A DNA stretch of 9,959 nucleotides, from positions 1-9,959 of the forward strand of contig JAFGFV010000256.1 in assembly GCA_016930895.1 (NCBI GenBank). Reading direction: 5' to 3'. Under the pieces are notes generated by a model. That model did not search any database, was not told where the DNA came from, and saw only the letters and a list, made by a program, of their open reading frames with translations. Of the stretch, positions 3,348 to 8,069 are shown piece after piece; positions within the stretch are counted from its first letter, which is position 1, and each line of letters begins with the position of its first letter. The position numbers and the translations under genes are program-made. The DNA is from Spirochaetales bacterium. GTDB lineage: Bacteria > Spirochaetota > Spirochaetia > SZUA-6 > DRHE01.

Positions 3348-3352
3348 GTCAA
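3339..3352 (+). promoter_or_regulatory. Crp/Fnr-family type operator (TTGAC-N4-GTCAA)
   Basis: TTGACCTGGGTCAA has perfect six-base inverted arms around a two-base centre. This matches the TTGA(T/C)-N4-(A/G)TCAA layout recognised by Fnr, Anr and Dnr-type regulators. Its centre (3345.5) lies about 42 bases upstream of the start point predicted from the TATATT element at 3376-3381, the normal class II activator position. Which regulator binds it cannot be read from this window. Confidence 0.55.
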
Positions 3353-3375
3353 TGGCCTCCACGGCTGCCGTCGAG

Positions 3376-3381
3376 TATATT
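3376..3381 (+). promoter_or_regulatory. -10 element TATATT of the zinc/HD protein gene
   Basis: TATATT lies in an otherwise GC-rich region. The hexamer 17 bases upstream (TGGCCT, 3353-3358) is a poor -35, as expected for an activator-dependent promoter. Transcription would begin near 3388, exactly at an ATG, so the message may be leaderless. Confidence 0.5.
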
Positions 3382-3387
3382 CAACTC

Positions 3388-4005
3388 ATGGACCACATGA
3401 TGTGTCCGGGGGCAAGGTTCCTGCGTCAGCCTCGCCCGGAGATGTTCGAGTGCCCGGACTGCGGGGCGGAAGTCGAGATCTGGTCCGACGAGATCCGCGG
3501 AACCTGCAGCTCCTGTGGTAGACACGTATTCCGCGAAGGCCTCCCCTCCTGCGTGCAGTGGTGCAAGTACGCCAAGGAGTGCGTAGGGGCGGAAGCCTTC
3601 GGGCGATACCAGCGCAACCGGGCAATCGGGCTCAAACAGCGCCTGCTGGAGGTCCTGCAGGGCCGCGGGCTCATCTGCGGGGAAGAGGCAGCCCTCCGGG
3701 AGCGCGCTCTCGCGCGCGCAGAGCGGATCCTGGAAGGCGAGCCCGAGGCGGCCTGGCATCTTGTCATTCCCGCCACTTTGCTCCATGATGTGCCCTTCGG
3801 CCAAGGGCCGGATCATCCGAGCCTGGAGAAGCTTCTGCACGCGCAGGGGCTCGATCCGCAGGACATCGCTGCCATTCAAGGGATTCTGGCGGAGCTGTCC
3901 GGCGCAGGGACCGCGGACCTGGAGCTGGAAGCGCGAGTCGTGCGGGATGCCTGGGGCCTGGCGGAATCAGGCAAGAAGAAAAAGCGAACGAGAGCGGTGC
4001 GCTAA
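3388..4005 (+). CDS. Zinc-ribbon protein with degenerate HD-phosphohydrolase domain
   Basis: The protein has 205 residues from ATG 3388. An N-terminal MMCPGARF is followed by a zinc ribbon with Cys22, Cys25, Cys40 and Cys43 (CPDC, CSSC) and a second Cys cluster, CVQWCKYAKEC (Cys55, Cys59, Cys65). This layout matches a family of zinc-ribbon HD phosphohydrolases known mainly from anaerobic bacteria. The HD part (about 100-192) keeps the LLHD dipeptide (His133-Asp134) and an aspartate in VVRDAWGLAE (Asp187). It lacks the first metal-binding His, where the sequence reads ALRERALARAERIL, and the usual HHH stretch after the HD motif. Phosphohydrolase activity is therefore doubtful. The C-terminus is strongly basic (KKKKRTRAVR). 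Starts at 3352, 3388, 3397 and 3400 are in frame. The 3352 ATG overlaps the operator and none has a good ribosome site; 3388 sits at the predicted transcription start. A sensory or nucleic-acid-binding role is possible but unproven. Confidence 0.75.
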   Translation: MDHMMCPGARFLRQPRPEMFECPDCGAEVEIWSDEIRGTCSSCGRHVFREGLPSCVQWCKYAKECVGAEAFGRYQRNRAIGLKQRLLEVLQGRGLICGEEAALRERALARAERILEGEPEAAWHLVIPATLLHDVPFGQGPDHPSLEKLLHAQGLDPQDIAAIQGILAELSGAGTADLELEARVVRDAWGLAESGKKKKRTRAVR

Positions 4006-5568: not shown

Positions 5569-6357
5569 ATGGACATCCTGCGCAAGACGGCGGACCTCCT
5601 GGACCAGGGGGAGGACCTGGTGCTCGTCACGGTGGTCAAGGCGGGGGCCGGCACGCCCGGCAAGCCCGGGTTCAAGATGATCGTCGCCCGCTCCGGGGCC
5701 CTGCACGGCACGGTAGGCGGCGGTGAGCTGGAAGCCCGAGCCCTCGAGGAGGCCGGGGAGATGCTGCGGACCGCCGAAGGGGGGCTGCGGGAATACGACC
5801 TCGGGGAGCTCGGCATGAAGTGCGGCGGCCGGGCCACCCTGCTCTTCGAAGTTTTCCGGGCCCGGGCGAGCTTCGTGCTGTTCGGCGGCGGGCACATCGG
5901 CCGGGCCCTGTCCCCGATCCTGGAGTCCCTCGGCTTTCGCGTGACGGTTTACGACTCGCGCCCGGAAGTCCGGGGGCTCCTGTCCGACGGCGAGCAGCGC
6001 ATCGTGGTCCAGGGGGACTACGGTGATCTGAGCTCGATCCAGGCCACCCTGGCGGCGAGCGAGTACTGCTTCATCGCCACCCACGGGCACGAGCACGACT
6101 ACGTGGTCCTGAAACAGGTGCTGGCCGCGAAGCCCCAGTACCGGTACGTGGGGCTGATCGGCTCCAGACCCAAGATCCGCGCCACCGTGAAGCGCCTGGC
6201 CGCCGACGGGTTGGAGCGTCCGCCCTTCCTGTATGCGCCGGTCGGACTGGCGATCGGCGGGGACACCGCGGCGGAGATTTCCGTATCCGTGGCCGCGGAG
6301 ATCCTGGCCGTACGCTACGGCGCCGCGGCCCCGCACATGCGGGACCGCCTGGATTGA
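5569..6357 (+). CDS. XdhC/CoxI-family molybdoenzyme maturation protein
   Basis: The protein has 262 residues from ATG 5569. XdhC proteins bind molybdenum cofactor, promote its sulfuration and hand it to xanthine dehydrogenase or related hydroxylases (CoxI/CoxF are the CO-dehydrogenase counterparts). The N-terminal XdhC_CoxI domain (about 5-65) includes VTVVKAGAGTPGKPGFKM and GTVGGGELEARALEEA. Next is GMKCGG with Cys85, a conserved cysteine of the family. A C-terminal Rossmann-like domain has VLFGGGHIGRAL (103-114), THGHEHDYVVLKQVL and VGLIGSRPK, then IGGDTAAEISVSVAAEILAVRYG. No large molybdoenzyme subunit lies in the window. There is no ribosome site before 5569, but a promoter ends eight bases upstream, which suggests a leaderless start. 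A GTG at 5485 would add about 28 residues that the family does not need. The next gene starts at most 83 bases downstream and is probably co-transcribed. Confidence 0.9.
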   Translation: MDILRKTADLLDQGEDLVLVTVVKAGAGTPGKPGFKMIVARSGALHGTVGGGELEARALEEAGEMLRTAEGGLREYDLGELGMKCGGRATLLFEVFRARASFVLFGGGHIGRALSPILESLGFRVTVYDSRPEVRGLLSDGEQRIVVQGDYGDLSSIQATLAASEYCFIATHGHEHDYVVLKQVLAAKPQYRYVGLIGSRPKIRATVKRLAADGLERPPFLYAPVGLAIGGDTAAEISVSVAAEILAVRYGAAAPHMRDRLD

Positions 6358-6440: not shown

Positions 6441-8069
6441 GTGAGCAGTCATCTCAGGATCGCGGTCACGTGCAGCTTCGGGCTGGAGTCCCTGGTCAGC
6501 CAGGAGCTCTCCGAACTCGGCTATCCGGAACATGTGGTGGGAAACGGACGCGTGTGCTTCACGGCCCCTGCCGCGGCCCTGGCCCGGTGCAACCTCTGGC
6601 TGCGGACCGCGGACCGCGTGCTCGTGGTCCTGGCTGAGTTCCCGGCGGCAGGTTTCGACGAGCTGTTTGCGGGCGTTCAGAGCGTCCCGTGGGAGGAGAT
6701 CCTGCCGGCCGACGCGCGGGTCGTGGTGACGGCCCGCTCGGTCCGGTCGAGGCTGACCAGTCTTCCCGCCTGCCAGAGCACCGTCAAGAAGGCCGTCATC
6801 GAGAGCTTGCGCCGCCGCCATGCCGCCCAGTGGTTCCCGGAAAGCGGGCCCTTGTACGCGGTGGACCTCGCCTTGCGCGCCGACCGGGGCCTGCTGACCC
6901 TCGACTCCACCGGAGAAGGGCTGCACCGCCGGGGCTATCGCACACGCGCGGGCGCCGCCCCGCTGCGTGAGAACCTGGCCGCGGCCCTGGTGATGCTGTC
7001 CCGCTGGGACCCCTCACGGGTGCTGGCGGACCCCTTCTGCGGCTCCGGGACGATCGTCATCGAGGCGGCCATGGCTGCGCTGCAGATGGCGCCCGGGCTC
7101 CGGCGGAGCTTCACCGCGGAGGGTTGGCCGCATCTGGACCGGCGAATCTGGCAGGAGGCAAGGGAAGAAGCGCGCACCCGGGCCGCGGCGGCGACCCGGG
7201 GCGGCGGAGGGGAGGCCGAGATCCTCGCTTCGGATCGCGATGTGCGCATGATCGCTCTCGGCCGGGCCAATGCCCGCCGGGCCGGAGTCGAGGGTGCCAT
7301 CTCGTGGCGTGCCCTCCCGGTCGAACGGTTTCGCAGCCGGGCGCCCTACGGCTGCCTGGTCTGCAATCCCCCCTACGGAGAGCGCACGGGCGGGGCTTCC
7401 GAGGTGGAGGAGCTGTACCGCACTCTGGGCGCCGTGTTCGCCCGCCTGGACCGCTGGTCCGGGTTCTTTCTGACGTCCCATCCTCATTTCGAGAGGCACT
7501 TCGGGAGACCGGCGGACCGCAACCGCAAGCTGTACAACGGGAACCTCAAGACCTACCTCTACCAGTACCTCGGCCCGCTTCCCCGTTCCGAGGATCACCG
7601 GCACGCCCCGCCCGGCGCAGCCGCCGGGAAGTCGCCCGGCTCCGTCTCAGGGGACACCGCGGGGGCTGCCATCCTGAAAGGCCGGGCAGAGACCGGCTCC
7701 GGGCGCGGGCGGCGGCTCGGCTTTCCCACCGCAAACCTGGCCCTGGACGCGGACGCGCTTCCTCCTTCCGGCATATACGCCGTCTGGGTCCGCATCGAAG
7801 GGGAGCAGCGCTGGCGTCCCGGGGCCGCCAGCGTGGGGTACAACCCCACCTTCCCGGCAGACCGCCGGCGCCTGGAGGTGCACATCCTCGACTATGACGG
7901 GGGCGAGCTCTACGGCAAGCGGCTGGAGGTGCTCCCCGTCGCCTACCTGCGCGAGGAGAAGCGCTTCCCGGACCCCGAGACCCTGGTCCGCCAGATGGAG
8001 CGGGACTGCGCCCACGCCCGAAGCATGCTCGCCGAGGCGAGGCCCCCGGCGCAGCCGGGCGAATCGTAA
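6441..8069 (+). CDS. Fusion protein: THUMP-type RNA (guanine-N2) methyltransferase + riboflavin kinase
   Basis: This is one continuous 542-residue frame from GTG 6441. Residues about 1-380 form a class I SAM-dependent rRNA methyltransferase of the RlmL/YpsC type: a ferredoxin-like/THUMP N-terminus (AVTCSFGLESLVSQEL), ADPFCGSGTIVIEAA (196-210) for SAM, catalytic NPPYGER (309-315) and the family ending RKLYNGNLKTYLYQY. A proline/alanine/glycine-rich linker (about 381-408) follows. Residues about 409-530 are a complete riboflavin kinase domain: GRGRRLGFPTANL with PTAN at 429-432 for Mg-ATP, GIYAVWV, SVGYNPTF, catalytic-type Glu479 in LEVHILDYDGGELYGKRL, and LREEKRFPDPE. The FAD-synthetase half of RibF is absent. 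No ATG, GTG or TTG codon lies in frame between the domains, so a separate kinase start is unlikely. TTG 6354 (TTGA overlap with the previous stop) would add 29 Pro/Ala-rich residues; neither start has a clear ribosome site. The domain calls are firm, while substrates are inferred from families. Confidence 0.9.
   Translation: MSSHLRIAVTCSFGLESLVSQELSELGYPEHVVGNGRVCFTAPAAALARCNLWLRTADRVLVVLAEFPAAGFDELFAGVQSVPWEEILPADARVVVTARSVRSRLTSLPACQSTVKKAVIESLRRRHAAQWFPESGPLYAVDLALRADRGLLTLDSTGEGLHRRGYRTRAGAAPLRENLAAALVMLSRWDPSRVLADPFCGSGTIVIEAAMAALQMAPGLRRSFTAEGWPHLDRRIWQEAREEARTRAAAATRGGGGEAEILASDRDVRMIALGRANARRAGVEGAISWRALPVERFRSRAPYGCLVCNPPYGERTGGASEVEELYRTLGAVFARLDRWSGFFLTSHPHFERHFGRPADRNRKLYNGNLKTYLYQYLGPLPRSEDHRHAPPGAAAGKSPGSVSGDTAGAAILKGRAETGSGRGRRLGFPTANLALDADALPPSGIYAVWVRIEGEQRWRPGAASVGYNPTFPADRRRLEVHILDYDGGELYGKRLEVLPVAYLREEKRFPDPETLVRQMERDCAHARSMLAEARPPAQPGES

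Follow-up and report, generated by a model that had tools for sequence, protein, structure and literature searches.

Whether a riboflavin kinase (RFK) lying behind an RNA methyltransferase in one open frame is a real fusion, what each half would do, and whether the halves act together are the questions raised by the locus analyzed here. An earlier note on this DNA had read the frame as an in-frame fusion of the two enzymes and had suggested that the protein may couple FMN supply to ribosome modification. The features needed to follow the argument, all within the window (the whole stretch of 9,959 nucleotides that was analyzed), are given below.

6441 to 8069, forward strand: fusion gene of 542 amino acids, from GTG at 6441 to TAA at 8069; RlmL-type methyltransferase plus RFK
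6459 to 6623, forward strand: RlmL_1st ferredoxin-like domain (PF22020; Pfam E value 9.4e-22)
6648 to 6905, forward strand: THUMP RNA-binding domain (PF02926; Pfam E value 1.2e-7)
6930 to 7559, forward strand: UPF0020 methyltransferase domain (PF01170; Pfam E value 2.3e-48)
7029 to 7052, forward strand: DPFCGSGT motif, read in translation
7365 to 7385, forward strand: NPPYGER motif, read in translation
7587 to 7709, forward strand: linker of 41 codons, rich in Pro, Ala, Gly, and Ser, delimited by codon reading; the Pfam match to RFK begins inside it, at 7674
7674 to 8030, forward strand: Flavokinase domain (PF01687; Pfam E value 2.4e-35)
7719 to 7736, forward strand: GFPTAN motif of the RFK half, read in the sequence
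7875 to 7877, forward strand: catalytic-type Glu codon of the RFK half, placed by RFK alignment

Two complete domains in one open frame

The RlmL_1st, THUMP, UPF0020, and Flavokinase domains follow one another in this order in one protein, each above its Pfam gathering score, and the Flavokinase match reaches 121.9 bits against a gathering score of 19.6 while spanning profile positions 7 to 124 of 124. Chance is excluded by a wide margin as the source of the domain matches of both halves. The reading of this gene as a methyltransferase and a flavokinase fused in one frame is borne out by the presence of both complete domains, and the families to which the earlier note had assigned the two halves agree with the Pfam domains, the motifs, and solved folds. 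The open frame also offers an alternative upstream start, TTG at 6354, which would give a protein of 571 amino acids.

The methyltransferase half falls short of the NCBIfam model for RlmKL (PRK11783; 278 bits, with a cut-off of 466), as expected for a model that also spans the RlmK half, and the N-terminal half is therefore filed as RlmL-like and not as RlmKL. By sequence, it matches the PDB entries 3k0b (6.4e-101) and Escherichia coli RlmL, 3v97 (3.4e-57), together with 3ldu and 3ldg, and its structure model matches the folds of the same four entries. We take the DPFCGSGT motif to be SAM binding and NPPY to be catalytic. RlmL-type methyltransferases methylate G2445 (E. coli numbering) of 23S rRNA; the N-terminal half is predicted to be an RlmL/YpsC-type THUMP methyltransferase, with N2-methylguanosine in 23S rRNA as its expected product.

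The linker and the RFK domain are of low confidence in the full-length structure model, in whose alignment the RFK-only rows were poorly aligned, which made the RFK part unusable, and the RFK half was consequently modeled separately (mean pLDDT of 88.5). The separate model has 36 PDB matches with E values up to 0.001. The entries matched are FAD synthetases, over their RFK modules, RFKs of eukaryotes, and the two-domain entry 3op1, aligned over its RFK part; named fold matches include C. ammoniagenes FAD synthetase (FADS), in its RFK module, human RFK, S. pombe RFK, and TM379. The entry 3op1 was deposited as a "macrolide-efflux protein," a name that looks wrong, as its C-terminal half aligns with riboflavin kinase.

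According to the part of PMC2573891 drawn on here, residues T208, N210, and E268 of the C. ammoniagenes enzyme, which belong to the PTAN motif and include the Glu, are needed for kinase activity. Both the PTAN motif and the aligned Glu are present in the RFK half of the fusion, and the longer pattern GxxRGxxLGFPTAN and the Glu are invariant in all 22 aligned RFKs. For the C-terminal half we propose ATP-dependent riboflavin kinase activity, by which riboflavin would be converted to FMN. Pfam gives no match to FAD_syn (PF06574) in the fusion protein, and several NCBIfam RibF models match it over the RFK part only, with the RibF equivalog cut-offs not reached. The claim that the protein would make FMN without FAD fits this domain content; the enzymatic activity itself is a prediction.

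It could be argued that the RFK half is a leftover with a noncatalytic, flavin-binding or regulatory role on an ordinary methyltransferase. Motif-less C-terminal regions derived from RFK are indeed common in the class to which the nearest genome, Spirochaetes bacterium RBG_16_67_19 (G001), belongs, and domain decay is a habit of that group. The Flavokinase domain of the fusion is complete, however, and every column that is invariant among the 22 RFKs, those of PTAN and of the Glu among them, is intact in it, leaving this possibility with very little to commend it. An active kinase is the reading that we carry forward.

The linker and the occurrence of the fusion

The linker had been described as free of in-frame ATG, GTG, and TTG codons, and this observation extends to every forward frame: none of the three codons occurs between 7587 and 7709 in any of them. 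The in-frame start codons that flank the linker lie at 7434, inside the methyltransferase, and at 7833, past PTAN. The forward frames of the linker contain a single stop, the +1-frame TGA at 7675. A CTG at 7674 overlaps this stop (CTGA, 7674 to 7677) and offers a possible start for a separate RFK. This arrangement outlines how the fusion could have arisen as an artefact of assembly or sequencing: in the real genome, rlmL would stop at TGA 7675 to 7677 in the +1 frame and a separate RFK gene would start at CTG 7674, the frames having been joined by an erroneous indel in the linker. Besides the CTGA overlap, such an artefact would be consistent with the fusion being known from a single contig and with the nearest relatives of each half being listed as separate proteins. 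A separate RFK would nevertheless need a rare start codon (CTG), as ATG, GTG, and TTG are missing from the forward frames of the linker. Codon usage across the linker as a whole favors the fused frame (mean ln-probability per codon of -3.69, compared with -4.02 for the +1 frame and -3.87 for the +2 frame), and the +1 frame required for the TGA at 7675 scores worst; the substretch from 7630 to 7670 does not share this preference, with the +2 frame (-3.76) slightly better there than the fused frame (-3.86). Taking these points together, we regard an artefact as unlikely and continue with a genuine fusion.

The fusion looks like a one-off among the matches listed, which is how the term is to be read for protein searches that depend on shared words. 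When the full-length protein was used as the query, PF01687 occurred only in the fusion itself among the best 120 of 7139 matches. When the RFK part was searched against proteins of 298 to 948 amino acids, methyltransferase domains were again confined to the fusion, with all 98 of 98 matches inspected. The closest methyltransferases among the matches listed (P0002 to P0006) are 72 to 76% identical and have no Flavokinase domain. The closest RFKs among the matches listed (P0218 to P0242) are 52 to 73% identical and 127 to 168 amino acids long, with Flavokinase as their sole domain; they come from a search restricted to short proteins, blind to fusions by its length limit, and three of them (P0218, P0223, and P0227) lie on contigs of about 700 to 1100 bases and may be partial. 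The longest contig has the same length, 6347, for the methyltransferase P0006 and the RFK P0228, which hints that the two genes may adjoin in a relative.

The earlier note had held that separate genes in related genomes would point to an assembly or single-strain artefact. Among the matches listed, the closest kin of each half are separate proteins, as that reasoning anticipated, which by itself demonstrates no artefact; what it shows is that the fusion is lineage or strain specific.

Searching genome contigs with the fusion protein returned five loci, with no match past query residue 384. The nearest of these contigs (L001), from RBG_16_67_19, has the gene order htrA (reverse strand), xdhC (forward), and rlmL (forward) in common with the stretch around the fusion gene, at protein identities of 75%, 59%, and 63%, respectively, and ends inside rlmL. 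This shared gene order makes a GC-rich spirochete the probable source of the window. No RFK was found beside rlmL in the stretch examined in L058, L059, and L060, whose RlmL proteins are 48 to 52% identical. Likewise, the RFK alignment had 0/26 matches among genomes of the order of RBG_16_67_19, and the RFK of the fusion, used as the query, matched 3 of 98 relatives, at 30 to 32% identity only.

A search of viral contigs gave one locus, a phage-like contig that starts inside the 3' end of rlmL and holds no RFK. In this IMG/VR contig (L146:1-1242), the final rlmL codons are followed, on the reverse strand, by a gene that we read as encoding a phage integrase of the tyrosine type, and in some host prophage attachment may occur at the 3' end of rlmL. 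Elsewhere in the window, positions 3352 to 4005 of the forward strand encode a protein of 217 amino acids whose zinc-ribbon-like Pfam matches are all below threshold.

RibF and riboflavin kinase in the class of the nearest genome

Additional insight is gained when the fusion is placed in the context of flavin biosynthesis in its relatives, for which up to 297 genomes of the class of RBG_16_67_19 were sampled. FAD_syn was found in 198/297 genomes (194/297 over the cut-off) and Flavokinase in 29/297; by open frame, 12 of the Flavokinase matches are of RibF length, 15 are of 134 to 190 amino acids, one is of 568 amino acids, and one is a partial match of 53 amino acids. The RFK alignment was matched in 42 of 394 genomes in a larger draw from the class and in 177 of 392 genomes in a phylum-wide draw, where RibF-length frames predominate among the matches listed. 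Among 28 RibF loci, which were hand-picked and not random (27 in class genomes and one in genome G359), the GxPTxN motif occurred in none, versus 28 of 29 RFK-positive control loci, the sole miss being a partial match. A narrower pattern (PT, then A/L/I, then N/K) gave 0/28 and 21/29, respectively, and the C-terminal tails were short in the RibF loci examined. The archaeal CTP-dependent RFK was considered as the missing FMN enzyme of the class and rejected, with matches in 0 of 294 class genomes and positive controls matched in four archaea. Incomplete genomes may account for some of the RFK absences in the class sample.

RibF in the sampled class thus seems to have widely lost its kinase half, a state that, judged by motif and length, is the published FADS-type II. 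In the portion of PMC2972280 drawn on here, FADS-type II denotes a RibF that lacks PTAN and whose C-terminal module is shortened, with Treponema pallidum, Eubacterium saphenum, and Mycoplasma conjunctivae as examples, and Alistipes putredinis combines it with a monofunctional RFK. Genome G359 holds such a pair: its RibF (L106) has 270 amino acids, lacks RFK, and follows a gene that reads as truB, and its separate RFK (L105) has 149 amino acids and is near the RFK type of the fusion (6.1e-61 to the RFK alignment). This RFK lies on a different contig from the sole RlmL match of that genome, which is 32% identical. As RibF in the class mostly has no recognizable RFK, a lone RFK becomes plausible, a background that was absent from the earlier note.

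In the lineage of the fusion, RFK appears to have been split off from RibF. We consider it likely that the locus represents a genuine fusion, in a GC-rich, uncultured spirochete, of such a detached RFK with an upstream rlmL, the halves working independently. The C-terminal half of RibF would have decayed, giving FADS-type II, and RFK would have become a gene of its own, which in an ancestor would have lain downstream of rlmL. Loss of the rlmL stop and of the RFK start codon would then have produced one chain with a flexible linker. The RFK half would now supply FMN, which a shortened, separate RibF, presumed to be encoded in the same genome, would turn into FAD elsewhere in the cell. The two halves most likely act side by side, with the RFK probably providing FMN independently of the methyltransferase and of its methylation of 23S rRNA.

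RFK has other partners in the class. Two of its genomes (G202 and G576) encode an APC-type amino acid permease with an in-frame C-terminal riboflavin kinase (L013:1486-3189, reverse strand, and L140:118-2481, forward strand); the permease parts of the two proteins are 40% identical, as are the RFK parts, and in L140 an FAD_syn fragment below the cut-off lies between permease and RFK. One possible role for the permease-RFK protein is that of a transporter-kinase for riboflavin (or one that traps FMN). Two further loci, L127:352-2238 and L124:280-2136, both on the forward strand, are single open frames in which TruB, a tRNA pseudouridine synthase, is followed by the FAD synthetase domain of RibF.

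It could alternatively be speculated that selection favored the methyltransferase-RFK fusion because the methyltransferase is tuned by FMN from the RFK half or by riboflavin status, or because FMN is delivered at the ribosome. Gene fusions can mark functional links, and the TruB frames of L124 and L127 join RNA modification to an FAD synthetase domain in two class genomes, although neighborhood alone may explain them, as truB and ribF adjoin in G359 too. Against coupling, no second methyltransferase-RFK fusion appears among the matches listed, and RFK is also found alone or on a permease. Furthermore, neither an FMN riboswitch nor any other Rfam family was detected in the window at the gathering score, and the joint in the full-length model is linker-like and of low confidence. 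We therefore find it highly improbable that coupling drove the fusion and hold out as slight a prospect that the protein, as the sole riboflavin kinase in its cell, works as a unit and either makes FMN at the ribosome or lets rRNA methylation follow flavin status. Whereas the fusion and its families stand, the link between FMN and the ribosome suggested in the earlier note finds no support, with no recurrence among the matches listed and no RFK by rlmL in L058 to L060. Independent action of the two halves is the interpretation that we retain.

Taken alone, the methyltransferase-RFK fusion is a curiosity, and its setting, a sampled class in which RibF seems to have widely lost the kinase half and RFK, where present, often stands separately or on other partners, matters more. 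The recurring permease-RFK fusion and the apparent absence of RFK from most sampled class genomes are the more interesting leads. As most of these genomes have no recognizable RFK, bacterial or archaeal, their route to FMN presents a directly testable question.

Comparison with known systems

The N-terminal half of the fusion shares its domain order and motifs with the RlmL/YpsC-type 23S rRNA m2G methyltransferases (the N-terminal half of E. coli RlmKL; 3k0b, 3ldg, and 3ldu). In E. coli, the fusion partner of RlmL is RlmK, whereas in the window a riboflavin kinase takes the C-terminal place. Monofunctional bacterial riboflavin kinases exist, Bacillus subtilis RibR among them (PMC2972280, in the portion drawn on), and share with the RFK half its fold, its motifs, and a Flavokinase domain without FAD synthetase; unlike these, the RFK of the window is attached C-terminally to a methyltransferase. 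Bifunctional RibF carries an N-terminal FAD synthetase domain that is absent from the fusion protein. FADS-type II, the RibF state of the 28 hand-picked loci, leaves room for a separate RFK, the window itself carrying no view of RibF.

A literature search found no description of an RFK joined to an RNA methyltransferase. An RFK placed behind another enzyme is known. Part of PMC2972280 describes RibF as FAD synthetase-RFK and a plant protein as FMN hydrolase-RFK, and part of PMC2573891 describes a DHBP synthase-like-RFK in Rhodococcus. A 510-amino-acid protein among our matches (P0216), with a HAD-type hydrolase, FAD_syn, and Flavokinase, recalls the plant arrangement. In RibF, the plant protein, and the Rhodococcus protein, RFK is the C-terminal module behind another enzyme, as it is here, but their partners belong to flavin metabolism, whereas the partner in the fusion acts on RNA.
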